From Burkholderia anthina (lineage in GTDB: Bacteria > Pseudomonadota > Gammaproteobacteria > Burkholderiales > Burkholderiaceae): a DNA stretch of 64,000 nucleotides. Shown here piece by piece: positions 15,751 to 42,898 of this stretch. The notes under the pieces were generated by a model, which saw only the letters and a program-made list of their open reading frames with translations, had not been told where the DNA came from and searched no databases. The stretch's first letter is position 1. The number at the start of each line of letters is the position of its first letter. Location: the NCBI RefSeq assembly GCF_001547525.1, contig NZ_CM003768.1, positions 992,001 through 1,056,000 of the forward strand. The letters are read 5' to 3'. Made by a program: the position numbers and the translations under genes.

Positions 15751-15810
15751 GATATATGGGTGAATCCTTTTAGAATCGACCGCAGCGGTCGAGCCTGGAG
15801 GCGCACGAGT
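15751..15810 (+). repeat. Dispersed ~60-bp repeat, copy 1
   Basis: Starts GATATATGGGTGAATCC and includes TTTTAGAATCGA and GCAGCGGTCGA. About 50 of 60 positions match the copy at 36241-36301. It sits immediately inside the left tRNA-Pro fragment. Confidence 0.7.
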
Positions 15811-16209: not shown

Positions 16210-18717
16210 ATGGCATCGGACATGCTGGATAAGGTGCTGCGCGGCGGTTACGCGCAGTTTGATCGTATCGTCAAACTTGACACTCCACTCGGCGACAACT
16301 GGCTCACGCCACTGTACGTCAAGATTAAAGCGCGGCTTGGGCGCAATTTCGAGGTGACTGTCGATGCCTCATCGGTCGTCGGCGACAAGATCAAGCTCAG
16401 CGCCCTGATGCTGCAGCCCGTCACGCTCTGGATCCGCCAGACGGACGGCGGCTATCTGCCAATCCACGGCTACGTGCAACAGGCTCGCCGCTTAGGAAAC
16501 GATGGCGCTTTGTCGTACTTTCAGCTCCATTTCGCTTCATGGTTAAGCTTCCTCAAGCTCAGTAGCGATCGGCGCGACTGGCAGGAGGCCAGCGGCTGGC
16601 AGATTCTCACCGACGTATTCGACAAGCATCCGCAGGCTTCCGGCAACTATGCACAGGAACTGCGCACGGCAATGCGCTCGTATTCGCACCGCGTGCAGTG
16701 GGAAACCGACTGGAATTTTGTTCACCGGAGTCTGGAGGAAGTCGGCGTATTTCCGCGCTTCGATTTCGCGAAGGATGGCAAGTCGCACAAGGTCGTCATG
16801 ATGGACGACTTGTATTTCGGGCCGTCGCTGCCGAATTCGGAGATGAAGTTCAGCCACGCAGGTACCGACGAGGATTTCGACGGACTTACCCAGTTGAGTG
16901 AACAGCAGGACGCCCAAAGTGCGACGCTAACGCTGGGCACCTTTGACTACAAGAGGCCTGACCTCGACAAACAGGCGAGCACGCCAGCGGCTGACCTCGA
17001 TGAATTACCCGGTCAGGGCGAAGAGTATCTCTATACCGGCTCACAGACGTGGGCCGAATCTGATGCTGGACAGCAACAGGCCCGCATCCGCACCGAGGAA
17101 TGGGCTTCGCGAGCAAAACGCTATTTCGCGATCGGCAGTCCCCGCTATGCATTGCCCGGCTACTGGTTCAAGGTGTCGGGACATCCCCTCTTCGATGCAT
17201 TGCCGGAGGAGGAGCGCGAGCTGTCGATCATCGCCAGCGACTGGTTGATCCAAAATAATTTGCCCGGCATGGACGCGCTCACGCGATTTCCGCGCAGCCT
17301 GCGCAGCGAGATCGAACAGGTCAAGGCGGCCGGGACCGGAGCGACCGTGAGCCACCGCGATGGCGGTGTCGGATTTTTTCACGTCGAGATCGAAGCGCAA
17401 CGCCGCAAGACGCCGTTCCGCAGCCCGTTCGAGCATGAGAAGCCGGAAATGCATTTGCAGACGGCGATCGTCGTGACCGATAGTGACGAGGAAATCGTCA
17501 CAGACGACAGCAATCGTGTGCGGGTCCGGACGTCGAACAGTCGAAAGGATCGAAATACGAAGTCCACGTCGTGGATTCGTGCAGCGATGCCGGACGCAGG
17601 CTCGAAGCGCGGCGGCTACTTCCCGTTACGCAAAGATGATCAGGTGCTCCTCGGGTTCGTCAATGGCGACTGCGACCGGCCGGTAATCATCTCGCGACTG
17701 CACGGTGGTGCGACGATGCCGGTGTGGCACACGCACGGCCTGCTGTCCGGCTTCCGTTCTCGCGAATACGGTGGTGATGGCTTCAACCAGCTCGTCATGG
17801 ACGACGCTACCGGCCAGAACCGAGTCCACCTTTACTCGTCGAGCTACAGTTCTCACCTGCATTTGGGCTACTTGATCGAACAATCCGATAACACGCGCGG
17901 CTCGTTCGTCGGCAACGGATTCGACCTGAAGTCTGGCGCGTACGGCGCGGTACGCGCCGAGCAGGGACTCTATGTATCGACGCAGCCAGCCACCGCCCAG
18001 CCGCTGAACGTGACGGCCGCCACCGATCCGCTTGCCGGCGCGGAAGCCGTGCTCGAGACCGTGTCGAAGGCCAGTGAAACGAACCGTGCCGAAAGTCTCC
18101 AGGACGGTCAAGCCGCGCTGAAGTCGTTCACAGACGCAACGCAGCGCACCGTTGCTGGTTCTGCCAGCGGCGGCCGTACAGCCGGCGGCGGTACGGGTAA
18201 TGCGAACGGTTTTGCGAAGCCGGTGATGCTGTTGTCGAGTCCTGATGGCATCGCCGCGTCGACGCAGCAATCGGTGCATGTCACGGCGAACCAGCACGCG
18301 AACGTCGTTGCGGGCAAGAACGTCAACTTGGCCGCCGGTAAGGCGTTACTGGTCAGCGTGCTCGACAAGATCAGCCTGTTCGCGCAAAACCTCGGCATCA
18401 AGATTTTCGCGTCAAAGGGATCGGTAGACATTCAGGCGCAAAGCGGCTCGGCCTCGCTGGTGGGGCTGCAGGACGTGAAAATCGAAAGCGCGGACGGGCG
18501 GCTGATTCTGACGGCCGCGAAGGAAGTGTGGATCGGCGCGGGCGGCTCATACATCAGCATCAAGGGCGGTTTGATCGAGAACGTGACGACTGGACAGATT
18601 CTCGAAAAATGCGGGAGCTGGGACAAACCGAGTGGTGGCAGCGGAATGAAGCTTGATCCGCTGAAGGCGACGCCAGTATCGACTGACGGCGGACGCGGTT
18701 CGCTCTTCTCCGGCTGA
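16210..18717 (+). CDS. vgrG: Type VI secretion spike protein VgrG
   Basis: Trimeric spike of the T6SS tail tube, 835 residues. The gp27-like N-terminal part runs to about residue 350 (FEVTVDASS, LSFLKLSSDRRDWQEASGWQILTDVF), then the gp5-like OB region (about 420-510, VRVRTSNSRKDRNTKSTSWIRAAMP...GGYFPLRKDDQVLLGFVNGDCDRPVI), and a DUF2345-type beta-helix region (about 640-790). The region around residue 600-680 is low-complexity and Gly/Ala/Thr rich. It heads a cassette of effector, immunity candidate and PAAR. No tssA-M structural genes lie in the window, so this is an orphan cassette served by a T6SS elsewhere. Confidence 0.93.
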   Translation: MASDMLDKVLRGGYAQFDRIVKLDTPLGDNWLTPLYVKIKARLGRNFEVTVDASSVVGDKIKLSALMLQPVTLWIRQTDGGYLPIHGYVQQARRLGNDGALSYFQLHFASWLSFLKLSSDRRDWQEASGWQILTDVFDKHPQASGNYAQELRTAMRSYSHRVQWETDWNFVHRSLEEVGVFPRFDFAKDGKSHKVVMMDDLYFGPSLPNSEMKFSHAGTDEDFDGLTQLSEQQDAQSATLTLGTFDYKRPDLDKQASTPAADLDELPGQGEEYLYTGSQTWAESDAGQQQARIRTEEWASRAKRYFAIGSPRYALPGYWFKVSGHPLFDALPEEERELSIIASDWLIQNNLPGMDALTRFPRSLRSEIEQVKAAGTGATVSHRDGGVGFFHVEIEAQRRKTPFRSPFEHEKPEMHLQTAIVVTDSDEEIVTDDSNRVRVRTSNSRKDRNTKSTSWIRAAMPDAGSKRGGYFPLRKDDQVLLGFVNGDCDRPVIISRLHGGATMPVWHTHGLLSGFRSREYGGDGFNQLVMDDATGQNRVHLYSSSYSSHLHLGYLIEQSDNTRGSFVGNGFDLKSGAYGAVRAEQGLYVSTQPATAQPLNVTAATDPLAGAEAVLETVSKASETNRAESLQDGQAALKSFTDATQRTVAGSASGGRTAGGGTGNANGFAKPVMLLSSPDGIAASTQQSVHVTANQHANVVAGKNVNLAAGKALLVSVLDKISLFAQNLGIKIFASKGSVDIQAQSGSASLVGLQDVKIESADGRLILTAAKEVWIGAGGSYISIKGGLIENVTTGQILEKCGSWDKPSGGSGMKLDPLKATPVSTDGGRGSLFSG

Positions 18718-18775
18718 CACGGAAACGTAACACGCCGACGCAACACGAAAGCAAAAACGAGAGATTCCGAGAAAC

Positions 18776-21658
18776 ATGAGCACGAACCATCATTCCGCGA
18801 AAGGTCACGCGCCCGCAAAACCGAAAGCTGCGCCAAACGCATCGGCGGCAACGCAGACGACCGCTGCACCGAGTTACAAGGCCCTCAAGTGGGCCTATCC
18901 GTTTACCCCGGTCGATACCGACGGGGCGGACAAACCAATGACGTATATGAAGGCGCTAGCGACGGCGGAGGACGGGTTTTACCCACTCGGCGCAAACGGT
19001 ATGTGGCACGGAGGCGTCCACTTTGACCAGAACACAGCCGTCCAACTGAAGCAAGACGAAGGCTTCCGCGCGATCGCCGACGGCGAAGTCGTTGCATACC
19101 GGCTCGACAGCAAGTATCCGGAACAGGATTACCAGGACGGCCGACACGCGCTGTATTCGACCGGTTTCGTGCTGGTTCGCCATCGACTGCAACTACCGCC
19201 TCCGCCATCTCCGTCGCAACCGTCGAAGACGGATGCGACCACGAGCAAGAATTCGGCTGTCCAACCTGCATCGTCATCAAATTCTGCTCCGCCGCCGACG
19301 CCATCGCCAGTAGCGACTGCTCCAACGACCACAAATAAACCGGCACCAGACGAAGTATTGACCTTCTTCAGCCTGTACATGCACACGATGGATCACGACG
19401 GCTATCTATCGGCTAAAGAACAAGCGAAGGTCGCCCAAGTCGATCCGTCGAAGCTGAACATGGACGCGATGCCGTATTGGGAAGGCGATCGGTACTATCG
19501 TGTCGGTGACAAAGCCAAGGATCCGCAAGGCGTTCCACTTCCGAAAATTCCCATGCCTTCGCTGAAAGACACGATCAGTGAGGACGTGTTGGGTGATTTC
19601 ATCAAGAGCAATTTCAAAACGCCACCACAACTCAAACCAGATCCCAAGGATACTCCCACCCCGACGTCTCAGCCTGCCCCGATCGTTGGCCTGCGCATCC
19701 GAGATCTGCCCAACGGCAAGGTCATCGGCATCTTGCCGAGGGGAACAGAATTAACCGTTTCAGCTACGGATGAGAAGGCAAAAGCAAGTCCTGGCTGGGT
19801 CAAGATCAGTGCGATCAAGTCGGGGAAGCCGGTGGCAGCGGTCGTCGGCGAATCCGTATCCCCGCATGCACCCTTCGGATACGTATTTGAGAAGGAGCTT
19901 GACCTCGTCGTCGATCCGAAGCCGCTGGATACGATCGTCGTGCTCAAAGAACCCAAGTGGGTGAACGCCGGCGATGTGATCGGCCGGCTCGGTCACTATC
20001 TGCGTTACCCAGACGCGAAGCTGTTGCCGGCGAAGCCAACGCGGCCGCTCCTGCACCTGGAGGTATTCGCGGGTCCTGAACTTGAGGCATTCATTGATAA
20101 AAGCCGCGAACGCGCCAAGCAGTTGCCCAAGTCCAAAGCGTTTCTGGGGATCTCACCAGGCGCTCGACTCATCGCAGATCTTCCTGATGCGGACCAAAAA
20201 CTGCCGCCCGGTGTAAAGCTTGTCCCTCTCTCCCGCGACGCGAAGGGTAAATGGATCAAGGTGCAGCCTAAAACAGCCGCCCCCGTTCATGGCGGACGCC
20301 ATACGAAACCCGTTTACAACGATGCCGGCGCCCCTGTTTGGGTCGAAAGTAATTTCGCCAACACGACGACCACGACAATCGTGCCTGGCTGGAAGGATTT
20401 CCCGCTGAACTTCTCAAATGCCAAAGGGCCTGGTGCGGACTTTCGCGCTGTGTTCCGCGTGAGCGAACTGGACAAGAGCGGCGCAACCAACTTCGCGAAA
20501 GATGACAAGGATCGCCGTTGGTACTATGTGAAGATTGGGGCGAAGGACGGCAGCCTTCGCGAAGGATGGGTATGTGAGCAGGACCACCCACTCGTGCAAA
20601 TGTGCGGGCCGTGGGACTGGCCGGGCTTCGAACGTGTTGACAACAGCAGTATCAAGCCCGTGGACATGTTCAAACGTTACATCCACGTCGGAGAGCAGTT
20701 TCTTGCCGATGAGAGCAAGACGGAATTCGAAACAAGCGCGGCAACGGTCAATGCGAGCCCACTTATCGCAAAGCTTGAGAAGGCCCTCGATGCAAACCAC
20801 GACGGCAAGGTGACTGCACAAGAATTGAAACATGCGCAAGCGGTAGATTGGTCGGCGGAAGCGCTTTCCCACCTCATCGTGCGTTGTGAAAGTGAATGGG
20901 GCGGCGGCTTGGGAAAATGGGAGGAGTTGTCACCATTAATGAAGAAGCTAATGTGGTTGTGGAAGGCCGAGATCGAACGCATCGGGAAGCTTCAATGGTG
21001 GGAGGAGATCGCTGCGAAAAAAGTGGACGGATTTCCTGACGATCCAAATCCGTGGCATTTCCATCCGATTGGGATTATCGGTAATTTCTGCGGCCTTAGC
21101 GGGATTGGCATTACTCTAGAAGAAGCCAGGGTGCGCGCATTTTTACGAATGCTTCGAGTCGGGGAAGGCACTGAGGGGCCAGAAGGATATGAGAGACTAT
21201 ATGGCGGCGAATCTTTCATAAAAGATTATCATCGAGATTTTAGCGACCATCCGAAGATATATATTACCCGAGAACATAACGGAAAGAGCATAACATCGTC
21301 GGCTGCCGGTGCCTATCAGATCATGGGATATAACTGGTTCCCGGAAGAGGGGCAAACCTACAGAAGATTGGCAAAGGTTAAAGATTTCTCTCCAATTTCT
21401 CAAGATAGATATATTGTTGCGATCATGAAATACAAAAGAAATTGTCTCGACGACGTGAAAAATGCTGATCTGGAGCGAGCAATCTTCACGCATCATGCTA
21501 ATAACGAGTGGGCCAGCCTGCCAGGCGATCAGTATGGTCAAGGTGGCGTCAACATGAAGTCAGTGAAGGAGCATTTTGAAAAATATGTGGCGGACGAGCT
21601 AGCGGGAAATAGTGATCTTGCAGTTCCTGTTGGTGGTCTTGATGATTTGATTAAATAA
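18776..21658 (+). CDS. Probable T6SS peptidoglycan-targeting effector, M23-like plus lambda-R-like muramidase domains
   Basis: 960 residues, no signal peptide, directly after vgrG. The N-terminus (about 70-135, MWHGGVHFD...AIADGEVVAYR) and a distant LLHLEVFAG (about 425-432) are pieces of an M23 metallopeptidase fold. They are separated by a Pro/Ser/Thr-rich linker (140-190) and an SH3-like segment (about 300-345). An EF-hand-like loop DANHDGKVTAQE is at 672-683, then WHFHPIG, common in cell-wall T6 effectors. The C-terminus (about 787-937) resembles phage lambda endolysin R: RMLRVGEGTEG with presumed catalytic Glu797, YGGESFIKDY, FSDHPK, SAAGAYQIM, KDFSPISQD and EWASLPGDQYGQ. The M23 part lacks the first His of HxH and may be non-catalytic. 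Codon usage becomes AT-richer toward the 3' end. Confidence 0.82.
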   Translation: MSTNHHSAKGHAPAKPKAAPNASAATQTTAAPSYKALKWAYPFTPVDTDGADKPMTYMKALATAEDGFYPLGANGMWHGGVHFDQNTAVQLKQDEGFRAIADGEVVAYRLDSKYPEQDYQDGRHALYSTGFVLVRHRLQLPPPPSPSQPSKTDATTSKNSAVQPASSSNSAPPPTPSPVATAPTTTNKPAPDEVLTFFSLYMHTMDHDGYLSAKEQAKVAQVDPSKLNMDAMPYWEGDRYYRVGDKAKDPQGVPLPKIPMPSLKDTISEDVLGDFIKSNFKTPPQLKPDPKDTPTPTSQPAPIVGLRIRDLPNGKVIGILPRGTELTVSATDEKAKASPGWVKISAIKSGKPVAAVVGESVSPHAPFGYVFEKELDLVVDPKPLDTIVVLKEPKWVNAGDVIGRLGHYLRYPDAKLLPAKPTRPLLHLEVFAGPELEAFIDKSRERAKQLPKSKAFLGISPGARLIADLPDADQKLPPGVKLVPLSRDAKGKWIKVQPKTAAPVHGGRHTKPVYNDAGAPVWVESNFANTTTTTIVPGWKDFPLNFSNAKGPGADFRAVFRVSELDKSGATNFAKDDKDRRWYYVKIGAKDGSLREGWVCEQDHPLVQMCGPWDWPGFERVDNSSIKPVDMFKRYIHVGEQFLADESKTEFETSAATVNASPLIAKLEKALDANHDGKVTAQELKHAQAVDWSAEALSHLIVRCESEWGGGLGKWEELSPLMKKLMWLWKAEIERIGKLQWWEEIAAKKVDGFPDDPNPWHFHPIGIIGNFCGLSGIGITLEEARVRAFLRMLRVGEGTEGPEGYERLYGGESFIKDYHRDFSDHPKIYITREHNGKSITSSAAGAYQIMGYNWFPEEGQTYRRLAKVKDFSPISQDRYIVAIMKYKRNCLDDVKNADLERAIFTHHANNEWASLPGDQYGQGGVNMKSVKEHFEKYVADELAGNSDLAVPVGGLDDLIK

Positions 21659-21668
21659 AAAACGAACA

Positions 21669-22196
21669 ATGAAGAGCGATATTTTATTGAAATTTGCCAT
21701 TGTAGTTGCAGCAATGAGCCATGCCTTGTGCTGGGGGCAGGATGTCGATTTCGCAAATCATCCTTCCACTCTTTATCGAGGTGCCCTCCATATACCGAAG
21801 TATTACAAAAAAACCGATTCCGGCTGGCGGGATGATGATGGCAAGCTAGTGGGGCCTCCTGTAATAAATTTCGCGGGAAAATATCACATCGGGGTCCATA
21901 GTTGCGGCATGGAGTGTCGTTACTACACTTTATCAGACCTTTCGACGGGAAGGGATTTAAACTCCCTGGATATGTTTTCGTCAAACGGCAAAGCGCCTAA
22001 CAAAACCCAGGATGGCAGATCATATATCACCGAATTGCTAAGCAAGGCAGAGAGCAAGATGCTTGTCGCAAAATACTATATCGACGCATCAAACGGAAGG
22101 CCTGCCGAGTGCCGGCAGCGGAAATTCATTCTCGACGACAATATTAAGATAGTCGCCATCCCAAATTCATTCTCCTCTTGCAAAACAGAAAATTAG
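21669..22196 (+). CDS. Candidate periplasmic immunity protein
   Basis: 175 residues beginning 10 bases after the effector stop, so probably translationally coupled; no good ribosome-binding site of its own is seen. A hydrophobic N-terminus (LLKFAIVVAAMSHALC) with a likely cleavage near CWGQ-DVDF marks it as exported. The mature part has four Cys (CGMEC, a Cys in AECRQ and SSCKTEN) that could form disulfides in the periplasm. There is no family I recognise. Position and export match what is expected of an immunity protein against an effector acting on the periplasmic cell wall; the assignment is inference from context. Confidence 0.7.
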   Translation: MKSDILLKFAIVVAAMSHALCWGQDVDFANHPSTLYRGALHIPKYYKKTDSGWRDDDGKLVGPPVINFAGKYHIGVHSCGMECRYYTLSDLSTGRDLNSLDMFSSNGKAPNKTQDGRSYITELLSKAESKMLVAKYYIDASNGRPAECRQRKFILDDNIKIVAIPNSFSSCKTEN

Positions 22197-32601: not shown

Positions 32602-32678
32602 CCGCCCTTAGCTCAGTTGGATAGAGCAACGGCCTTCTAAGCCGTAGGTCACACGTTCGAATCGTGTAGGGCGGGCCA
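32602..32678 (+). tRNA. tRNA-Arg(UCU)
   Basis: 77 bases. Acceptor CCGCCCT pairs with AGGGCGG, D-arm AGCTCAGTTGGATAGAGC, anticodon stem ACGGC/GCCGT with loop CTTCTAA (anticodon TCT), T-arm ACACG-TTCGAAT-CGTGT, discriminator G and encoded CCA. Foreign-looking DNA begins directly after it. Confidence 0.96.
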
Positions 32679-33884
32679 GAATTCTTCGTTTTTCAAGCAC
32701 TTCCAATTTCGCATCAACCGCGTGGTTACAGATACGCGTGGCCGACGTGTCCGGTACTGTACCGTAGCGATCGTTTTGACACTGGTTAGCGCGGGATTTG
32801 ACACTGGGCGGCCATGAGGAAGAAAAGACGCATTGCGGGCGATTCTGAAACAATCCGCGTCGAATGAGCACCCTCAACGAGATTATTGAAGATCGAACCA
32901 TGCCTCCTATCCGGAGGGTGGAAACCCTGGCGGCGTTGATTCACAAATTTGGGACCCTACAAGTGCTGACCGATCCCCGCAACACCAAAAATTATCATTG
33001 ACCGGGAAAATGCTTTGGTCGGATCAACAGCAACGGCGCTCTAACGAGCGCTTTTTTTGTGCGATTGCATCAATATTTGCAGCAATCGCGAAAGGACTGG
33101 GTTTCCGGTTGCTTTCGGTCTGCGCAAAGGATGTCGCGGGCCGTATGTGAGGCTTTTTCCTTTCTAATCATGAGCTTGCAATAAATACGAAAGCGAATGT
33201 GTCCATGCACAACATGCTTTCGTTTTCCCTCGTGAATCCCTCAAGCTGCCTCCTTCCTCGAATGCCCAATATAATGACACCCGGGTAGAACCTTGCGTAC
33301 TCCCGCGGAATCCAGCACTGGCCCAGATATCAACGCTCGAACGCTGATGGGCGCGGTAGCCAACCGCCCATTGCGCGTCGGCGCGACGGCTTTCCAGACC
33401 TCTGGCATTTTCTGCCACTTCCCTTGACAAAACCCTCGCAAAATCCGTGCATTTCGCACAAGAATTTTGCAAACGTTTCGCGCGGCTTCTTTAATGTGCG
33501 CCGCCCCGAGTCCCGCCACCGTCGAGGCTTTCGGGACTTGTCCACACCCTCTCATCGTTGTGTCAAATCGAGCGCCTCCCCACAGGTATCGCCGGAGCGT
33601 GGTCGAGCGAGCACCTGACGGACGAGGGCAGCCAGTTCACCGCGAACGCATCAGCCGAGGCAAGGCAATGCGTTTTGTTGTGAATCAAATGCTGCTCGAT
33701 TCTATTTTTGTGATTTTTGATGTCACAATTGTTTGAATAATTTCTTCAACTATTCCATAAAATTCGACTGTCATAAGTATCAGCTTTCGGTGCCGATGTT
33801 CGCGTTCTATGTTTGAAATGCATTGCGGGGTATGCATTCAAAAACGGCTGCGATGCGTAATCACACTTTATTGTGGATAGCGAA
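32679..33884. other. 1.2-kb region after tRNA-Arg with no assigned gene
   Basis: AT content rises here. A tiny overlapping pair can be read: a 17-codon frame at 32814-32867 (MRKKRRIAGDSETIRVE) whose stop overlaps, as ATGA, a 45-codon frame at 32864-33001 (MSTLNEIIEDRTMPPIRRVE...). I do not recognise either. Direct repeats of TTTGACACTGG (near 32775 and 32799) resemble insertion-sequence ends. Two overlapping minus-strand frames around 33164-33555 have no family resemblance. Confidence 0.4.
33036..33058 (+). terminator. Orphan Rho-independent terminator
   Basis: GCGCTC-TAAC-GAGCGC stem followed by seven T. It lies just after the small frame ending at 33001, which lends some support to a transcript there. 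Confidence 0.75.
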
Positions 33885-34246
33885 ATGTCCGCACGAAGCA
33901 CTGTTGTGAAGCTGCAAAACAACTCGGGCAGCACGTTGTTTCTGGACTCGGCATCGATCAATCTGCTGCATGGCGAATGGGTCACGTACCCGCCGGAGAA
34001 GATCCCGAATGGACAAATGGGGGAATGGGAGAGCGATTCCGACGGCTTCACGACCGGAACCGAGGGGAAGCTTCAATATCAATTTGCCGACGGTGGCGGT
34101 ATCGAAAACTTGCGGATCTACTGGGACAACCCGTATTACGGCGGAAACGGATACTCGATAACCGTGAGCGCTGCCGGTTACAAAGTCGGTTACGACGGAG
34201 GCTCAGGAGACAATGCGACGGTCACTTTCTACATCAAGCAGGCTTG
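33885..34246 (+). CDS. Aegerolysin-like protein
   Basis: 120 residues from MSARSTVVKLQNNSGS; a GTG 12 bases upstream is the alternative start. The C-terminal half matches the aegerolysin pattern: GTEGKLQYQF, then LRIYWDNPYYGGNGYSITVS, then DNATVTFYIKQ, comparable with the FYWDCPW and GTITVD blocks of ostreolysin and Asp-hemolysin. Aegerolysins are small beta-sandwich lipid-binding proteins, some acting as pore-formers with a partner. There is no signal peptide and no MACPF partner nearby. Base composition is unlike the core genes, and it sits in the island between tRNA-Arg and IS66. Confidence 0.6.
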
Positions 34247-34376
34247 ACTTGGTGTGATCGGCTCGCGCCCATTCCGATGGGCGCGAATGATGGCCAGGAG
34301 TCTGTATCCCAGGAGTAGGCCGACGAAGTGTAAGCGAGTCTCCAGCACCGTCTCGACGGCCTGACCAGAAATTGCC

Positions 34377-34415
34377 AAAGTAGTCCCCACCACTTCAAGT
34401 AGCGGGGACTACTTT
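34377..34415. repeat. 12-bp inverted repeat upstream of IS66 tnpA
   Basis: AAAGTAGTCCCC and GGGGACTACTTT, perfect complements separated by 15 bases, ending at the tnpA start codon. It could be a regulatory hairpin or a fused pair of element ends. Confidence 0.6.
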
Positions 34416-34809
34416 GACAACAGAAGCACCAAAGAGGATTGGCCGCAAAGGCATCCCGAATCACCCGCTCGAATTCCGGCGCGAGGTGGCCAGGCTGGCA
34501 TGCGAGCCCGGCGTGTCGGTCGCGCGCCTGGCAATGGAGCACGGCCTGAATGCGAATCTGGTGTTCAAATGGCGCCGTTCGTTGCGGGCCGGCGAATACG
34601 ATTCGGCTGGACTGCTACCGGTGAAAGTGGAGACGCCGCTTGCCGAGACTACGCCGCTGGTGCCGGTGTCGCCGCGGACCACGATACCGACCGGCGCGAT
34701 TGAGATCAACGTAGGCAACGCCCATGTCCGCATCGAAGGCGCTCCGAACGAGAGTACGTTGACGCTGGTGCTGCACATGTTGCGCGGCATGCCGGGGATG
34801 GCAGCGTGA
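34414..34809 (+). CDS. tnpA: IS66 Orf1 (TnpA) transposase accessory protein
   Basis: 131 residues, TTG start. The N-terminal helix-turn-helix of the family reads [39 protein letters not shown]. Its stop overlaps the tnpB start region (GTGATCGG), so the genes are coupled. Confidence 0.85.
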
Positions 34810-35153
34810 TCGGTTTGCCGAGTCGAACTCGCGTCTGGTTGGCTGCAGGCGTGACCGACATGCGCTGCGGGTTCAACACCCTGGCGGCTAAGGTCCAGAC
34901 CGTGCTGGAGCGAGATCCGTTCAGCGGGCACGTGTTCGTGTTTCGTGGCCGGCGGGGCGATCTGGTCAAAGTGCTGGGGTGGAGCGGCGACGGCATGTGT
35001 CTGCTGATGAAACGCCTGGAGCGTGGGCGCTTCATCTGGCCGCGCGCCGATGGCGGCGTGGTCTGCCTGAGTCAGGCCCAGTTATCGATGCTGCTCGAAG
35101 GCATCGACTGGCGGCAGCCGGTGCGTACGACCGAGCCGAGTTCGGCGTTGTAA
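34806..35153 (+). CDS. tnpB: IS66 Orf2 (TnpB)
   Basis: 115 residues, normal length. Conserved [31 protein letters not shown] and [22 protein letters not shown]. The protein is required for IS66 transposition, with unclear biochemistry. Intact. Confidence 0.92.
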
Positions 35154-35182
35154 ACCTACCGGCGCCCGCGTAAACTGCGGGC

Positions 35183-36064
35183 ATGACCACGGCCAACGCT
35201 TATCCGGATGACATCGAAGCGCTCAAAGCCTTGTTGCTTGAGCGCGATGCGCGCATCGGTCATCTGGAAGATCTGGTCCAATCACACGAAGCCGTGGTGG
35301 CCACGGGCAAGGCCGAGATCGAGCACCTGAAGCTGTTGATCGCGAAGCTGCGCCGTATGGCATTCGGGCGCAGCTCCGAGAAACTGGATCGCCAGATCGA
35401 GCAGCTCGAACTGAAACTGGAAGATCTCGAAGCCGACGAAGGCGCTGCGCCCATCGAGATTCCCAAGGCACCGCGCACGGTACCGGAACAGATACAACGC
35501 AAGCCGCTGCCGGAGTATCTGCCGCGCGACATACGAACGTACCTGCCGGAGTCCGACGAAACCTGCAAGGCGTGCGGTGGCGCGATGACGCCGCTCGGCG
35601 AAGACGTGTCCGAGCAACTGGAGTACGTGGCGGCCAGCTTCCGCGTGATTCGCCATGTTCGACCGAAACTGGCCTGCACCTGTTGCGATCAGATCGCACA
35701 GGCGGCAGCGCCAAGCCGCCCCATCGAACGGGGTCAGGCCGGCCCGGGACTACTTGCGCATGTGCTCGTGGCGAAGTTCAACGATCACCTGCCGTTGTAC
35801 CGCCAGTCGGCGATCTACGCCCGAGAAGGCGTGGAACTGGATCGCTCGTTGCTGGCGAAATGGGTGGGGCACAGTGCCAAGCTACTGCAACCGCTGGTCG
35901 ATGCGCTGCGCCTGCATGTAATGGCAGCCACGAAGCTGCACGCCGACGATACGCCAGTTCCGGTGCTCGCGCCGGGCAATGGCAAGACGAAAACCTCCGC
36001 GCGGACTTACGCCGCTCGCTCGCGCCTGTGCGCCCCCGTGCGCGGGGAGGGGCCGTATCGATAG
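35183..36064 (+). pseudogene. tnpC: IS66 TnpC transposase, C-terminally truncated
   Basis: About 270 genuine residues out of the usual 510-540. Present: the N-terminal coiled coil (LLLERDARIGHLEDLV...ALKAL), the LRRMAFGRSSEKLD motif, the zinc-binding CKACGG...CTCC region and the first part of the DDE domain up to LHADDTPVPVLAPGNGKTKT (first catalytic Asp). The remaining catalytic residues are missing and the last residues come from unrelated sequence. Non-functional. Confidence 0.88.
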
Positions 36065-36211: not shown

Positions 36212-36245
36212 CGGCCGTAGCGGGCCGTGCTCGTGGAGGTGATAT
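36212..36245 (+). repeat. Direct repeat bracketing the lasso cluster, left copy
   Basis: CGGCCGTAGCGGGCCGTGCT then CGTGGAGGTGATAT; about 28 of 33 positions match 41374-41406 in the same orientation. Confidence 0.6.
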
Positions 36246-36301
36246 GTGGGTGAATCTTTTTAGAATCGATTGCAGCGGTCGAACCAAGGGGGCGCACAAG
36301 T
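36241..36301 (+). repeat. Dispersed ~60-bp repeat, copy 2
   Basis: Partner of 15751-15810: GATATGTGGGTGAATC, TTTTTAGAATCGA, GCAGCGGTCGAACC, GGCGCACAAGT. Lies 36 bases beyond the end of the lasso exporter gene. Confidence 0.7.
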
Positions 36302-36336: not shown

Positions 36337-38079
36337 TTAATCCATGTGTTGTCGGCGCTGATGGGCAGTTGGATCGGGAGATTCGGGTGCGAATTCTGTG
36401 ACGCTCCCGTGGTCCACGTGATATACACGGTCTGCGACATGCAATAGCGCCTCGCGGTGCGTGACTGCGATGATTGTACGTACGCGTTGACGTATTTGTT
36501 CGAAGACTCTGATTTCACGAAGGGGATCAAGAGATGACGTGGGCTCATCAAGAACAATGATGGGTGTCCTGCGTGCAAGTGCACGACCAAGTGCAACTCG
36601 CTGCTTTTCTCCCCCAGAAAGTTCTCTGCCTTGGACGCCGAGCGTGGCATCCAGTATATTGCCCGTGCTGCTTTTGGTTAAGCTTCGCAGTTCAAGTGCG
36701 TCGACTAGGTCGAGCAACTGATCATCGCTCGGTGGTTCTTTGCAACCGAATGCGAGATTGTCCCGGAGCGTACCACTGACAATTAACGGATTCTGCGGCG
36801 CCACTGCCACGATCTTAGATATTGCGGGGGGAGACAGCGTTGAGATATCTACGCCATTCAGCCGGACATGTCCCTCGGACGGACGCAGTAGTCCTAGCAT
36901 CAAATTGATGACGGTCGACTTGCCATTTCCTGACGGGCCTATTAGTACTGTCACTTCGCCGTCGTAAGCATGGAGATTGACTTTGTGAAAAATCTCGCGA
37001 CCTTCTAATGTCATGGCTACATCGCAGAACTCAAAAACAGGGCTCTTCCCTGTGCTTTCTGCTATTTCCGAAAAATCTGACTCTCGTGGAAGATTGAGAA
37101 TATTGAAGCCTTCACAAAGGGCGAGATGATTCCGACGTAGATCGGAGAGCGATGCAGCAAGATTGGTGAATGGTGCTGTAAGCGCAACAATATATCCGGT
37201 AACCATGACGAAATCACCGACGCTAAATTTACCCCGAGTTACTGCTGCTGCTGCGATCACGGTAAAGACCGTGAGAGCGATACCGGTGAGCAGAGCCTGT
37301 AGAGCTAGCAACAACGAGAGCCGTGCGTTACCTTGCGACACCTGAGTAACATATCTCCCTAGGATGCGATCTAATGAACGTTCTTCACGACCGTATGCGT
37401 CATTCACCTTAATGTCCGTCATGAAGCCGAGTTTTTCGATCAAGTGACTGGACAGAAGATTAGACGCACCAAATATTTCGGCGTGAGCACTTTTGGTTCT
37501 CGCGGCCAAGCTCCACGTGGCTGCGAAGAGTACAAGCATTGAAAGTACAAAGGCGAGCGCGAAGTATAGGCTTGTTAGTCGCCAAAGTACGGTCGTAGTA
37601 AATACGAGCTGAAAAATGGTCGGTGCAATGATCCAAAACAGAGTAAAAGTGAGTGCGCTGAAGGCTGCGCGACTTCGGGATATTATTGAGGCTATCGTGC
37701 CAGGGTCTAATTTTGATAATTTTGAATACTCTACGCGAATCAGGTGTGAGTAGTAAGATTTCTGAAATGCTGCGTCACATCTGGCTAGCATGGCCGCCGA
37801 AAAAGCTGTTTTTATCCATTCAGTGATTCGTGCGACTGTCCAAGAGACCCCGTACGCAGCAGCGAAAATCAAGGCTGATTGTTTGGAAAATCCATAATCT
37901 GGATGAGAGAGCGCATTGGTGCTTTCTCTCAGAAAATACGGTATCGAAGTCCCGAGCGCGGAAATTACTAGCATTCCGATCGTCGCAAAAATGAAATGAA
38001 TCGGAAGGGCCTTGTAGCTGGAAATTGCGACACGGTGTGCCGAAATATAATCTCTAATTATTTCTCGCACAAACGACAT
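36337..38079 (-). CDS. Lasso peptide ABC exporter (D protein)
   Basis: 580 residues, one-polypeptide ABC exporter: six-helix membrane domain (about 25-310) fused to an ATPase. Walker A GPSGNGKST (381-389), Q-loop VAVAPQNPLIVSG, signature LSGGEKQR (488-495), Walker B IIVLDEPTSSLDP and H-loop AVTHREAL are intact. No C39 peptidase domain is present, as expected when the leader is removed by the B protein. It is last in the A-B-C-D order, 46 bases after the cyclase gene, and should export the mature peptide and give self-immunity, as McjD does for microcin J25. Confidence 0.9.
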   Translation of the reverse strand: MSFVREIIRDYISAHRVAISSYKALPIHFIFATIGMLVISALGTSIPYFLRESTNALSHPDYGFSKQSALIFAAAYGVSWTVARITEWIKTAFSAAMLARCDAAFQKSYYSHLIRVEYSKLSKLDPGTIASIISRSRAAFSALTFTLFWIIAPTIFQLVFTTTVLWRLTSLYFALAFVLSMLVLFAATWSLAARTKSAHAEIFGASNLLSSHLIEKLGFMTDIKVNDAYGREERSLDRILGRYVTQVSQGNARLSLLLALQALLTGIALTVFTVIAAAAVTRGKFSVGDFVMVTGYIVALTAPFTNLAASLSDLRRNHLALCEGFNILNLPRESDFSEIAESTGKSPVFEFCDVAMTLEGREIFHKVNLHAYDGEVTVLIGPSGNGKSTVINLMLGLLRPSEGHVRLNGVDISTLSPPAISKIVAVAPQNPLIVSGTLRDNLAFGCKEPPSDDQLLDLVDALELRSLTKSSTGNILDATLGVQGRELSGGEKQRVALGRALARRTPIIVLDEPTSSLDPLREIRVFEQIRQRVRTIIAVTHREALLHVADRVYHVDHGSVTEFAPESPDPTAHQRRQHMD

Positions 38080-38125
38080 TTTTCCCTCTTGAGAAATGGT
38101 GATTCACTGATGCTCGCTCGTATCT

Positions 38126-39913
38126 CTACTGGAAGGACTGAGCGGTACGTGCTATGCCTCTGTGTGCAGTGTGGGCCATGTTCTGCCGACTGAACATTCC
38201 CCGAACAAACGTTTCCGTCGCGTAGATACGCGTGATTTCGGCAAGACCGACAGGAAATCCATCGGCGGCACGTTTGAGTAGCTTCTCTAGACCATCTCGA
38301 CGTACCATTCGTTCCGCTATACAAAATCCGTCCAGACAAACTTCTCGTACATGGTCGTAGTGCACATAAAGGCCTCGTAAGGCTGAGTGTGTTGTGTCGC
38401 CTTTGTCGGTCCGCCATAGATTTGGCAAATTCGACGAATCGAAGGCCGCTTGTCGGACGATTAGGCGGTTGTGATAACCCGTGAACAAGTCTTCTAAACG
38501 AGCGCCGAGGGCGAGTTCAACCATTGGCTGCGCGAGAAATGGCAAGATGGGGCGGCGTATGGTGGGGCGGACCTGGATCACGGTTTCGTCCAGTGTCGCC
38601 GCCAGTGCTGCCATTTGATATCTTCTTCCTGGCCGTGCCAACAATCTCCAATTGTTTAGCAAGTCGTCGTATAGACCCGCAGGCATCGCCCTCGGGCACC
38701 CATGCACGACACTCGGATCAGCGCTTTGCCCAAGCCCGCCGCGAAAGTACTGCCGCGTGTCGTGCATTAACCGTTTGAGCGCAGCCCAAATCGGTATCCG
38801 ATAGTAAATCGCGAGATCCCGCAAGGCGGTGATCGCGCGTACAAATCGAAGTTTGGCCATAGCATCGACAGGTACTCCGAAGGGCGGGGGGGCCAAGAAG
38901 AGTGCATCGCCGCCGTGCCCGTTTATGAGTGTGTCGTTCCGCCCTGGAACACCAGCGTGAGCCAAATTTGCGGTCTGAGCGAGGAAGCATAGTTGTGTCG
39001 ACGGCCGCGCAGTCAATGGCACTTCGTGGACCGGTGCGAATGGTAGTTGGCTTAGTAGTGGGTAAGTTTCATGTCGCAGCCGACATTTTTCTGCGACGGC
39101 GCGAGCAACCGACACTTCGTTTGATGAAGCCCGATCAGGATCGAAATGGGTTACAGCCGTAATTTGCTCGGACAGTCCTGCGCGGTGTGCGGCGATCGCC
39201 AGGGCAGTCGACTCTAAACCACCCGACAATTCGAGAACTGCGGGTCGGTCGGGCTCTATAAGCGAGTGTAGGACTGTCGACAATATCGCAATCGGATTAC
39301 GATCGACTGATCGTTTCCGCCATACATTGGGAGCCCACATCCGGGACAGTGAAATATTTCCCTGTTGATAGGTAAGGAACATTCCCGGAGGCAAAAGCGA
39401 GACATTCTCGATTCCCGTCTCGTCTGCATTGCCATATCCATGTGCGAGGTAACAGTGAAGGTACGAATTATTCGGCTTCGCGTGACCTTGTTCGATGGGA
39501 GGAAGGTCGTTTACGTCTGAAGCGATATGAAGATCGCCAGATCGATCGAGTGAATAATAAATTGGAAATTGACCGCAAGAATCGCAAAGAACAATAAATG
39601 TCGAATTTATCCGGTCAAATATAATTGCAGCAAAAGGCCCCCAGAATTGAGCTGCCGCCTCACTGATATCTCGCAGAAATGCCGCGACGAAATCGCCTTG
39701 CGGCGCTGCCTTGCCGCTGTCGCGAGACAATACGCGACCTGCGATACACCAGAGCGCAATGCTGTTCTCGCCGAATATAAGAGGGGGATTGATGGTTTGG
39801 GAAGATAGTTTGAACCTTGCGAGATAGCGAGAGGCGGTCCGCCAAAATTTTTCCCGAGCGAGGCCATTAGAATTACATTGACTGGAATGGTTGAAGAGTG
39901 TTGCATTAACCAT
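38126..39913 (-). CDS. Lasso peptide macrolactam synthetase (C protein, lasso cyclase)
   Basis: 595 residues, asparagine-synthetase-B homologue. It activates the ring Glu/Asp side chain as an acyl-adenylate, attacked by Gly1 to close the macrolactam. The N-terminal glutaminase-like half lacks the nucleophilic Cys2 (it starts MVNAT), so it cannot use glutamine, as expected of lasso cyclases. The ATP-binding loop is LELSGGLEST (about 228-237) and the second conserved motif is LINGHGGDALF (about 329-339). Its ATG overlaps the stop of the B gene in ATGGTTAA, implying coupled translation. Codon usage is AT-richer than in core genes. Confidence 0.9.
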   Translation of the reverse strand: MVNATLFNHSSQCNSNGLAREKFWRTASRYLARFKLSSQTINPPLIFGENSIALWCIAGRVLSRDSGKAAPQGDFVAAFLRDISEAAAQFWGPFAAIIFDRINSTFIVLCDSCGQFPIYYSLDRSGDLHIASDVNDLPPIEQGHAKPNNSYLHCYLAHGYGNADETGIENVSLLPPGMFLTYQQGNISLSRMWAPNVWRKRSVDRNPIAILSTVLHSLIEPDRPAVLELSGGLESTALAIAAHRAGLSEQITAVTHFDPDRASSNEVSVARAVAEKCRLRHETYPLLSQLPFAPVHEVPLTARPSTQLCFLAQTANLAHAGVPGRNDTLINGHGGDALFLAPPPFGVPVDAMAKLRFVRAITALRDLAIYYRIPIWAALKRLMHDTRQYFRGGLGQSADPSVVHGCPRAMPAGLYDDLLNNWRLLARPGRRYQMAALAATLDETVIQVRPTIRRPILPFLAQPMVELALGARLEDLFTGYHNRLIVRQAAFDSSNLPNLWRTDKGDTTHSALRGLYVHYDHVREVCLDGFCIAERMVRRDGLEKLLKRAADGFPVGLAEITRIYATETFVRGMFSRQNMAHTAHRGIARTAQSFQ

Positions 39914-40532
39914 TTTTAGGAAACTCGTAGATTACCGCGAGTTGCGTACGGCGATCGGGGTGATCGCCCACGACAAATCCATTGGATTCGACCCATGCGT
40001 GTGCAAAGAAAGGGCGGCTTTGAACTCCAATGACGAGATTAAAATCGAATCCATAGCGATACCCGACAATAATGAGAGTCACGGCCCATTCCAAGCATTT
40101 TGTTTTTCGGGTATATGCCATGCAAGCCAGGTTGACCGACGCGATAAGATCTTCTTTGCTCACATTTGTTTGGAGGGGCTTGATTTTAGTTCGCTCGTTA
40201 TTGATTGCTTCTATAAGACCTAACATTCGCTTTTCTCTTGAGATGCGATGAACCTGGTGGAGTGTGGTGAGCAATTTGATCCAGTCAAAGGCTGGTATGC
40301 CTAATCGCAACTGGCCTGGTGTGAGTTTCCAACAGTTAAATGGAACGCCAGTGTGTTTAGGAGTTGGGTGGCTGCGCCGGTGGTCTTTTAGGTTATATTT
40401 CGAAACTGTTGCTAGTTTTTTGGATTGTGTCGGCGATAGTACGGTGTAGCGATCTGATGTGAGATCGAGCGCGATTATCTGATCGTCGAACCACGTTATG
40501 TGAGCTTGATTGTCTCGTGCGTGCATGGTCAT
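39906..40532 (-). CDS. Lasso peptide leader-processing protein (fused RRE and transglutaminase-like protease, B protein)
   Basis: 208 residues from the ATG at 40532; one at 40526 is also possible. Longer frames would start inside the precursor gene or the intergenic hairpin. The N-terminal part (about 10-45, AHITWFDDQIIALDLTSDRYTVLSP) has the shape of a PqqD-like recognition element that binds the leader. The C-terminal part has the lasso-protease triad: Cys146 (RKTKCLEWAV), His178 (PFFAHAWVE) and Asp190 (VVGDHPD), with VIGVQSRPF between. Both functions in one chain is the proteobacterial arrangement seen in McjB and CapB. It should cut after Thr-Met in the precursor. Confidence 0.88.
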   Translation of the reverse strand: MTMHARDNQAHITWFDDQIIALDLTSDRYTVLSPTQSKKLATVSKYNLKDHRRSHPTPKHTGVPFNCWKLTPGQLRLGIPAFDWIKLLTTLHQVHRISREKRMLGLIEAINNERTKIKPLQTNVSKEDLIASVNLACMAYTRKTKCLEWAVTLIIVGYRYGFDFNLVIGVQSRPFFAHAWVESNGFVVGDHPDRRTQLAVIYEFPKNG

Positions 40533-40533
40533 T

Positions 40534-40558
40534 CCGCCCCGTTTTTTTGACGGGGCGG
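40534..40558 (-). promoter_or_regulatory. Hairpin between lasso precursor and processing genes
   Basis: Perfect 9-bp stem CCGCCCCGT / ACGGGGCGG with a 7-base A-rich loop on the transcript, 25 bases after the precursor stop and directly before the B start. With no U-run, it probably stabilises the short precursor message and limits read-through, and it overlaps the weak ribosome-binding site of the B gene. Confidence 0.75.
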
Positions 40559-40582
40559 TCATAAAGCTATCGATCTCGTCGA

Positions 40583-40714
40583 TTATTCCATATAGACCCA
40601 CGAAATTCCTTCGAGGATCGCGCCACCGGCGGCGCCCATCGTGCTGTCGGTCGCATTCACCGACTCAGCGTCAGTAATTTCCAGGATGTCGGTCAGATTG
40701 ATTTCGAAACTCAT
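40583..40714 (-). CDS. Lasso peptide precursor (A), 43 aa
   Basis: ATG at 40714 preceded by AAGGAG six bases upstream; stop TAA at 40583. The leader begins MSFEINLTDILEITDAES and ends in ATDSTM. The predicted core is GAAGGAILEGISWVYME. Lasso rules are met: Thr at leader position -2 (T25), Gly1 at the cut, and Glu at core position 9 to close a nine-residue ring, leaving an eight-residue tail with bulky Trp13 and Tyr15 as likely plugs. The core has no Cys, so it would be class II. It is first in an A-B-C-D operon. Hand-calculated monoisotopic mass of the dehydrated core is about 1704.82 Da. Too short for default gene callers. Confidence 0.88.
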   Translation of the reverse strand: MSFEINLTDILEITDAESVNATDSTMGAAGGAILEGISWVYME

Positions 40715-40731
40715 CGGAATCTCCTTGATGT

Positions 40732-40747
40732 GCAGCGGAATTGCTGC
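40732..40747 (-). other. Small hairpin in the lasso 5' leader
   Basis: GCAGC-AATTCC-GCTGC on the transcript strand, 18 bases upstream of the precursor ATG and just before its ribosome-binding site. Possible 5' stabiliser. Confidence 0.35.
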
Positions 40748-40831
40748 CTCGTAAGGCTAGTAATTAAGAGTTTAAAAATCAACATACTTAAATGAAACGG
40801 AATGTAAAAAAGAGGGCCGTTAGCAATGTCG

Positions 40832-40860: not shown

Positions 40861-41559
40861 TTTTTGTTCCACTGGGTAGTCTGGTGCGAGTCAGGTGGCG
40901 GCGGAGAACTCCTTCCTGCTGGTTGAAATCATGCTTAGTCACATACGCGCGGGATGGCGGTCGGGTGGCGCAGTCAGGCTACCCCGATGCAGATGACGGC
41001 AAAACGAGGGCGGTGTCCGGCGCAAATAAAAAGCAGTCGAGATCATTCGACGTTTGCCAGTCGGATTTGGGGAAGAACAGGATTTATCTAGATCGACGGG
41101 CCACACGTCACCAATTCGAATGGCCCGTGCCTGTGAGGGCGCATCTCGAACGACGACGCATGTCGAGACGGGGTCCGTCCAACTGAATCGCGTGCAGCGC
41201 GTGACCGGGATAGGGCGCATGAGCTCGCCATCCGTCGTCGAGCGGACAGCGAACCGGAGGCGTGATGAGCGTCGGCATTGGTGCGCCAGGCGGTTAGAGA
41301 GAGGGGGCATCCCACTGAATGTCTGGCGTGAAACGAAGAAGCTTCCCGCGATACCCAATGAGAGCCTACGTGACGGCCGCACGGGCCGTGCTAGTGGAGC
41401 TGATATAGATTTGAAAGAAACTAGATCCTCGATGCGAGAAAGCGCATGTCGGAGATCGTAAGAAATCGATTGATGCGTCCGTTGGGCGTCGAGGCAGCGA
41501 ATTGGCCAATCGAATTTGCAGTATCGTACTAGCGGCATGGACCGTCGCTTGCGGTGTGC
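40861..41559. other. Region between lasso operon and IS3 element, no gene recognised
   Basis: About 700 bases of higher GC than the lasso genes. Frames on both strands reach 135-200 codons, but their Arg/Ser-rich translations show no domain. It contains the right copy of the ~33-bp direct repeat (41374-41406). Probably scrambled remains of earlier insertions. Confidence 0.45.
41374..41406 (+). repeat. Direct repeat bracketing the lasso cluster, right copy
   Basis: CGGCCGCACGGGCCGTGCTA then GTGGAGCTGATAT; partner of 36212-36245. Confidence 0.6.
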
Positions 41560-41709
41560 TGACCCTGAACCAGAATTAGTCCCGGTCGGAAGTGGAGATT
41601 TCCGGCTTGTGACCCTGAACCAGAATTAGTCCCGGTCGGAAGTGGAGATTTCCGGCTTGTGACCCTGAACCAGAATTAGTCCCGGTCGGAAGTGGAGATT
41701 TCCGGCTTG
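41560..41709. repeat. Three exact tandem copies of the 50-bp IS end
   Basis: Copies begin at 41560, 41610 and 41660, each starting TGACCCTGAACCAGAATTAG; period exactly 50 bases with no internal differences except at the outermost junctions. Confidence 0.95.
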
Positions 41710-42533
41710 GTTGAGTTGTCAGGCGAGGCGGATTCCCTTGCCTGACGGGCGAATTCGGCGGGCGTCATCCACTGCAATGCAGAGTGGGGGCGCACCTCGT
41801 TATAGTACGTGCGCCAGTCGTCGATTTTGCTCTGCGCGTCGGCCAATGACAAGAACCAATGTGCGTTCAGACATTCCTGCCGGAAACGCCCGTTGAAGCT
41901 TTCGACCTTGGCATTGTCAGTGGGCGTGCCCGGCCGACTGAAATCCAATTCAACGCCATGTTCGTAGGCCCAGCGATCCATTGCCTTCGAGATGAACTCG
42001 CTGCCATTGTCGACCTTGATCGTGGCGGGGTGCCCACGTGTTGCAGTAATACGCATCAGCGCTTTGACCACATGCTCTCCCTTCAGACTTTGTCCGACCT
42101 CGATGGCCAAACATTCCCGTGTGTAGTTGTCGACGACGGTCAGAGTCCGAAGGCGTCGCCCATCGAACAGGGCATCTGCAACGAAATCCATGCTCCAGAT
42201 TTCGTTGATCGCGGTCACGATGTGCTTGGGCTGTCGCAGCCGAGCCGATTTGTTACGTCGTGGTCGCTTATGCCGCAGTGACAGGCCCTCCGCACGATAC
42301 AGCCTGTAGACGCGCTTGCAATTATCTCGCCAGCCTTCCCGTCGCAGGACCACATGAACGCGTCGATACCCGTAGTGCACGCGCGTGGCGGTGATTTCCT
42401 TGATACGCATGAGCAGCGCCGACGAATCGCGCGCAACCGACTGATACCGATACAGCGAACGAGACATGCCAAACAACGCGCATGTCTTCGTCAAGCTGGT
42501 TCGATAGCGATCACGCAACTCATCGATCAACAT
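41676..42533 (-). CDS. IS3-family transposase OrfB (DDE integrase core)
   Basis: 285 residues from the internal ATG; it is normally made as an OrfAB fusion. HTH_21 region at the start (MLIDELRDRYRTSLTKTCALFGMSRS), then the rve domain with DDE residues in WSMDFVAD, VDNGSEF and NAKVESFNGRFRQECL. Full length. The frame is open upstream to the A6G slippery site. Confidence 0.93.
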   Translation of the reverse strand: MLIDELRDRYRTSLTKTCALFGMSRSLYRYQSVARDSSALLMRIKEITATRVHYGYRRVHVVLRREGWRDNCKRVYRLYRAEGLSLRHKRPRRNKSARLRQPKHIVTAINEIWSMDFVADALFDGRRLRTLTVVDNYTRECLAIEVGQSLKGEHVVKALMRITATRGHPATIKVDNGSEFISKAMDRWAYEHGVELDFSRPGTPTDNAKVESFNGRFRQECLNAHWFLSLADAQSKIDDWRTYYNEVRPHSALQWMTPAEFARQARESASPDNSTKPEISTSDRD

Positions 42534-42550
42534 GCGCCGACGGGAAGGCT

Positions 42551-42817
42551 TCAGAGCTTTTTTGCGAGTACGTCCTGCAGCATGGCCTTGTCCAGGCTCA
42601 GGTCTGCTACGAGCCGCTTCAACTTCGCGTTTTCCTCTTCGAGCTGGCGCAAGCGGCGCAACTCAGAAGGTCCCAGACCTCCGAATTTCTTCTTCCAGTT
42701 GTAGAAAGTCGCCTCGCTTATTCCGAGCTTGCGGCAGATCTCTTCGACCTTCGTCCCCAACTCGGCTTGCTTCAGTGCAAATGCGATCTGCTCTTCCGTA
42801 AACTTGCTTGTCTTCAT
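42551..42817 (-). CDS. IS3-family OrfA (helix-turn-helix)
   Basis: 88 residues from MKTSKFTEEQIAFALKQ. HTH_8 domain (VEEICRKLGISEATFYNWKKKFGG) followed by a leucine-zipper-like segment (LRRLRQLEEENAKLKRLVADLSLDKAML). A CAAAAAAG run at about 42557-42564, six codons or less before the stop, is the expected -1 frameshift site for making OrfAB. Confidence 0.93.
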   Translation of the reverse strand: MKTSKFTEEQIAFALKQAELGTKVEEICRKLGISEATFYNWKKKFGGLGPSELRRLRQLEEENAKLKRLVADLSLDKAMLQDVLAKKL

Positions 42818-42898
42818 GGCATGGCCTTCGTGTCCGCTTGGACACATCATGCCGAATTTCTCTACTTTTGAACCGGACTATTTCTTGGGTCAGGGTCA

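Follow-up and report, generated by a model that had tools for sequence, protein, structure and literature searches.

A probable class II lasso-peptide operon in Burkholderia anthina and the family of its predicted 17-residue core

Introduction

In described lasso-peptide operons B recognises and cuts the leader of a precursor, A, whereas C activates an acidic side chain by adenylation to form the ring and D exports the product; according to passages of PMC13352647, which set out these roles, the microcin J25 operon mcjABCD has the same four functions as those that are assigned here to genes A to D of a locus from Burkholderia anthina. This locus (36337..40714, minus strand) lies in the window, i.e. 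the whole stretch of 64,000 nucleotides that was analysed (NZ_CM003768.1, positions 992,001 to 1,056,000), and is very likely a working class II lasso-peptide operon with a predicted product of 17 residues. As a rule, lasso precursors carry Thr at -2, have Gly as the first core residue and Asp or Glu at one of core positions 7-9. The ring of ubonodin has eight residues, and the core and ring size of microcin J25 differ from those predicted for the window.

The class II rule, i.e. a core without disulfide cysteines, and the closure of the capistruin ring at position 9, like that predicted for the window product, are both given in part of PMC9958762, which, with passages of PMC10826400, names capistruin and ubonodin for Burkholderia. 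According to passages of a survey (PMC8506256), 17 of 60 Burkholderia species have unnamed lasso clusters and few Burkholderia lasso peptides have been characterised, those named being capistruin and ubonodin, each of which inhibits RNA polymerase; the cores of the counted clusters are absent from these passages.

Operon layout and the precursor family

Four minus-strand open reading frames (ORFs) make up the locus, in the canonical order A (40583..40714), B (39906..40532), C (38126..39913) and D (36337..38079); this arrangement, including the overlap of B and C, which amounts to 8 bases, is as an earlier note on this DNA had described it. A encodes 43 residues, i.e. a leader of 26 residues ending NATDSTM and a predicted 17-residue core, GAAGGAILEGISWVYME, for which closure between Gly1 and Glu9 is predicted and an [M+H]+ of 1705.825 is calculated. 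There is no Cys anywhere in A, hence no core disulfide, in line with class II. A loose lasso pattern, T-x-G-x(5-7)-[DE]-x(6-20)-end, applied to the window ORFs of 35-70 amino acids (aa), matches 3 of 287, A included; because the motif alone is weak, A was identified by its position together with its conservation in seven genomes.

An identical 43-residue precursor heads the same operon in Burkholderia sp. MS389, the two genes being separated by one silent change and no amino-acid change, and B, C and D of the two strains are 93, 93 and 95% identical. The ratios of nonsynonymous to synonymous substitution (dN/dS), calculated with our own script for the same pair, are 0.127 for B, 0.190 for C and 0.146 for D. 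Five related precursors, from Paraburkholderia sp. CNPSo 3274, B. singularis and the genomes labelled G022, G070 and G396, each likewise head an ABCD operon, such that the gene order is kept in all seven genomes of the family. Four genus genomes (G001, G007, G008 and G043) gave weak precursor matches (E 0.06-0.07), which fall inside long open frames (402-409 aa) and were taken as chance.

There are six distinct 17-residue cores in the family, i.e. GAAGGAILEGISWVYME, GTPGGAMLEGISWVYVE, GAAGGSILEINRFVYKL, GTRGGSILEIGAWVYKF, GIRGGAILEIGAWIYKL and GKAGGAILESISWVYQF, and Gly1, Gly4, Gly5, Leu8, Glu9 and Tyr15 are constant in all six. In all the leaders NAT[DE]xTx directly precedes the core, which places Thr at -2. 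Four of the precursors were compared by alignment and the last two by eye; Thr25, Gly27 and Glu35 are invariant in the four and are also present in the other two. The near-fixed ring, found across several Burkholderia and related species, provides a directly testable new scaffold, in which the natural core variants already indicate changeable positions.

Comparison with other lasso operons

The capistruin-type operons (capABCD; found in G017, G021, G036 and G042) resemble that of the window in having A and B as neighbours, in their enzyme families and in a hairpin after A. By contrast, their core is GTPGFQTPDARVISRFGFN or a one-residue variant and closes on Asp9, whereas the window core is predicted to close on Glu9; their leader also differs, and in alignments B is 22-26% and C 22% identical to the window proteins. 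A further Burkholderia operon (G047, L037; cf. uboABCD), the precursor of which we take to be ubonodin-like, has a lasso B and a precursor of the same general kind, but its core is of 28 residues compared with 17 in the window and its B is only 20-22% identical.

Within the same bacterial family, the operons of the genera labelled g8 and g18, presumably of burhizin type, have a lasso B and come next best to the B alignment; their cores, GGAGQYKE.. or GGSGQYREAGVGRF, and their leader are unlike those of the window. The g11-type operons, which we assume to be pandonodin-like, also have a lasso B, though on a separate branch of the B tree, and a core that starts GVLGNDAEG or similar and has a long tail, unlike the window core. 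Thus, with the cores compared side by side, that of the window is neither capistruin nor ubonodin-like, burhizin-type or g11-type, and the proposal that it differs from capistruin and the other Burkholderia types is upheld.

Processing and export proteins

B is predicted to be a transglutaminase-like leader peptidase, being matched by the lasso B2 model NF033537 (E 1e-20, 74.4 bits, cut-off 33) and by Pfam Transglut_core3 (PF13471; E 1.5e-17). It is of 208 aa when read from the ATG at 40532, an alternative ATG start being present at 40526. The Cys-His-Asp triad previously recognised in the sequence is borne out by alignment, Cys146, His178 and Asp190 being invariant across 16 B proteins, that of the window included. 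The N-terminal region of B aligns with that of capistruin-type B and is a putative leader-binding (RRE) domain. The lasso B2 model finds a single locus in the 7.27-Mb genome, i.e. the B of the operon, and the same search matched 1 of 14 control genomes. PDB sequence searches using A alone or B alone gave no match.

C (595 aa) is a predicted asparagine-synthetase-like ATP-dependent lasso cyclase. It matches Asn_synthase (E 6.6e-10), with a trace of GATase_7 under the cut-off (22.6 of 25 bits), and in profile comparison with solved structures it matches beta-lactam synthetase (2.2e-13) and AsnB (1.8e-10). C starts MVNA, therefore lacking a Cys2 nucleophile, and its residues 230-235 are SGGLES; the earlier description, an asparagine synthetase B homologue without the glutaminase Cys but with SGGxES, is thus accurate. 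It can be aligned with 13 further C proteins, of which two are of capistruin type. D (580 aa) has an ABC_membrane part and an ABC_tran ATPase part, i.e. it is the full ABC exporter that had been proposed, with a predicted role in export and self-protection, and is found in 7/7 family operons, albeit broken up in one of them (G396).

RNA hairpins around A

An RNA hairpin with a 9-bp stem (40534..40558, minus strand; z -3.46) occupies the A-B intergenic region, adjoining the start of B. A stem of 9-10 bp is present there in 5/5 close operons folded (z -2.46 to -3.46), with 0, 1, 2, 5 and 2 of 200 shuffles folding equally well, and a strong stem is also present in G070. Between the window and Paraburkholderia two pairs are changed on both sides with pairing kept, as seen by eye. 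The 3' arm of the stem holds a purine-rich stretch right before the B ATG, so the hairpin may mask the B ribosome site, in which case A would be produced at a higher level than B, C and D. Comparable stems follow the capistruin-type and g11-type precursors (folded without shuffles), and the A-B hairpin therefore looks like a common habit of such operons.

The 5' region of A (40715..40780, minus strand) contains a ribosome site, AAGGAG, as well as a small hairpin, GCAGC-AATTCC-GCTGC, the letters of which are common to the window, MS389 and Paraburkholderia only. The latter hairpin is not supported, as 15/200 shuffles of the window sequence and 76/200 of that of Paraburkholderia fold equally well.

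Proposed mechanism and alternative explanations

By analogy with the roles of lasso enzymes, the conserved ORF A would be translated to give the 43-residue precursor, the leader of which would be bound by the N-terminal part of B and removed by its Cys-His-Asp protease part, with cleavage after Met26, i.e. with Thr at -2. C, using ATP, would then activate core Glu9 at its side chain and couple this to the Gly1 amino group, as in the family, so that the nine-residue ring would trap the tail; D would export the 17-residue product and protect the producer.

Several points weigh against the proposal of a working lasso operon. No family model matched A in NCBIfam and Pfam searches, and the sites differing between its window and MS389 versions are too few for a separate selection test. 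Profile searching found no PDB relative of the putative leader-binding domain of B, the matches being at chance level (best E 0.83). The Glu of SGGxES is present in C of the window, MS389 and Paraburkholderia, the other 11 of 14 aligned proteins having Asp (SGGxDS), and C reaches the curated cut-off of neither NCBIfam model for lasso-type cyclases (113.4 of 300 and 42.1 of 525 bits). In one relative, G396 (L081), B is in pieces of two frames, D is split over two ORFs and the A-B hairpin is not clear, and the support for the branch that holds the family in the B tree (82/90, see below) is only moderate. The scores of C do not, however, weigh against a lasso role, because a capistruin-type C likewise scores below both cut-offs (83.5 and 44 bits). 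Thus, when B and C are compared with models of lasso families, as the earlier note had suggested, B passes and C, like its capistruin-type counterpart, does not.

The damage in G396, together with the position of the window operon amid insertion sequences and gene remnants, could be taken to mean that the cluster is silent or decaying, carried with an island and no longer giving a peptide. This is unlikely, since all four frames are open in both the window and MS389, and the low dN/dS of B, C and D (0.13-0.19), with the unchanged precursor, suggests continued selection. The models that C matches below the cut-off raise a different issue, in that the better of them (113.4 bits) is of the albusnodin/ikarugamycin type, as might be expected if B, C and D were to process A into a plain, unthreaded macrolactam; a capistruin-type C, however, matches this same model first, so the match cannot separate a macrolactam from a lasso. 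Ring spacing and a Thr at -2 as in A are typical of lasso precursors, and the macrolactam alternative is very improbable. That the true precursor is encoded elsewhere, ORF A not being a substrate, would fit with the lack of a family model for A and with the few other short ORFs sharing its loose motif, but is scarcely credible given that the same ORF family stands before B in 7/7 family genomes, with identity in MS389.

The best reading is hence that of a complete class II lasso operon, in agreement with the initial proposal of a complete lasso cluster. Its product would most likely be, going by its relatives, a narrow-range antibacterial peptide acting against related bacteria. More tentatively, it is possible, though doubtful, that there is a lasso family limited to the Burkholderiaceae, with the core G-x-x-G-G-[AS]-[IM]-L-E-x3-[WF]-[VI]-Y-x2, which here is a relocating cassette and the target of which is not RNA polymerase. 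If so, the strongly kept ring and aromatic tail would act on a target other than that of capistruin and ubonodin.

Distribution and phylogeny

Within the genus, B finds a match at E <=1e-3 in 9/65 genomes; by precursor, four of these have the new family, four are capistruin-type and one is ubonodin-like. In the bacterial family, the B alignment finds matches at 1e-6 in 40/398 genomes. The seven best genomes (E <=8.1e-57; genera labelled g1, g3, g7 and g20) carry the new core type, and the next-best matches (4.6e-42 and 5.0e-42) are of burhizin type. Across the order, one of 399 evenly drawn genomes, that of the window itself, matches at 1e-25, in a draw that is poor in genomes of the same family. 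The precursor search covered all the loci kept except those of the window and MS389, i.e. 28 of 30, and gave candidates in 24 of the 28 (none in L064, L076, L077 and L079).

In a tree of 23 chosen B proteins, one branch, with a support of 82/90, has all seven rows of the new family on one side; long rows are those of Citrobacter and of the ubonodin-like type. Relatives of lasso B and C also occur in Candidatus Paracaedibacter symbiosus and two alphaproteobacterial metagenome-assembled genomes (L005, L006 and L009), each with two candidate precursors, the leaders of which end [SK]AS[TAL]LTQ before Gly.

Literature status

The exact strings of the window, Paraburkholderia, B. singularis and G022 cores were not found in the open-access text of 5.39 million PMC papers, and neither GGAILE, GGSILE nor GGAMLE co-occurs with 'lasso peptide' in open PMC text; for the G070 and G396 cores the coverage is that of the motif GGAILE with 'lasso peptide'. 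A listing of the peptide in a bulk genome-mining table is possible, as subscription papers and supplementary tables lie outside this search. A term search of the main text of the MS389 paper (PMC10821513) did not find the word 'lasso'. The cluster had been called apparently undescribed, which holds in so far as the strings are absent from the searched open-access text, but has to be qualified since MS389 has an identical precursor, such that the peptide is not unique to the window strain, and since passages of the above survey (PMC8506256) already counted lasso clusters. Overall, the operon very probably gives an exported lasso peptide of new sequence, in a biosynthetic class that is well known; the additions made here are a small peptide family, the A-B hairpin and the differing position of the operon in closely related strains.

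Genomic setting and change of place

The GC content of the operon (36337-40714) is 50.7% compared with 63.1% across the window, and insertion sequences are present on both flanks. IS66-family genes, i.e. for TnpA, TnpB and a truncated transposase, the last covering only positions 8-174 of a 387-position model, lie at 34414..36064 (plus strand), and an IS3-family element in two frames, assigned by family models, lies at 41676..42850 (minus strand). The lower GC and mobile flanks that had been reported are thus both present, and the horizontal acquisition proposed from them is further supported by the change of place and flanking repeats.

In MS389 the operon occupies a site equivalent to 15.69-15.75 kb of the window, before a vgrG gene, whereas the window operon is found at 36-41 kb, a distance of 20 kb. 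On either side of the empty site the two strains align at 91-94%. The MS389 operon is flanked by a direct repeat of 71 nt, the copies of which are 82% alike (L034 6696-6766 and 11687-11757) and which contains a 34-nt part on both sides. In the window's genome this 34-nt repeat occurs in two places, i.e. at the site that is operon-free there (15759..15792, plus strand) and beside D, as the part 36249-36282 of a repeat downstream of D (36223..36282, plus strand); on the A side there is a partial second copy (41384..41406, plus strand) of 23 nt with 2 mismatches. With up to three mismatches, the repeat is found in 4/65 genus genomes, twice each in G000 and MS389 (G039) and once each in G007 and G038, and a role as a genus-wide mobiliser was therefore rejected.

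In G007 and G038 the repeat, there operon-free, precedes a small gene starting MHPTLAF or MSSPYAF. Remnants of such a gene bracket the window operon, its beginning being found downstream of D and a DDGWRAHAPYPGHALHAI piece upstream of A, as recognised by eye, and the direct repeat looks like the region upstream of such a gene. These similarities suggest that the operon may have moved by recombination between copies of the repeat region, and that the IS66 and IS3 elements, and an IS30-like element that was recognised by eye beside the MS389 operon, may have settled next to it. A tRNA attachment site was dropped as an explanation, the tRNA scan showing none at 15.7 kb or adjoining the operon. 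A plasmid origin is not supported, as no plasmid record matched the operon DNA in a search that may omit records of the same or near genomes, and the relatives of C found in 19 plasmid records are all <=29.8% identical.

Neighbouring features

The region beside the site where MS389 has the operon (16210-22196, plus strand) contains a VgrG-like gene and, after it, two frames, one of 960 aa that matches an EF-hand model only weakly, under the cut-off, and one of 175 aa with no match. A tRNA-Arg (tct) gene (32602-32678, plus strand) borders the low-GC stretch of the operon and is a possible island entry point. Within this stretch, upstream of the IS66 genes, there is a small aegerolysin-like protein (33873-34247, plus strand; PF06355, 27.4 bits, cut-off 22). 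On the other side of the operon, a 50-nt unit is present in three perfect tandem copies (41560-41709), which overlap the IS3 transposase gene at its end.

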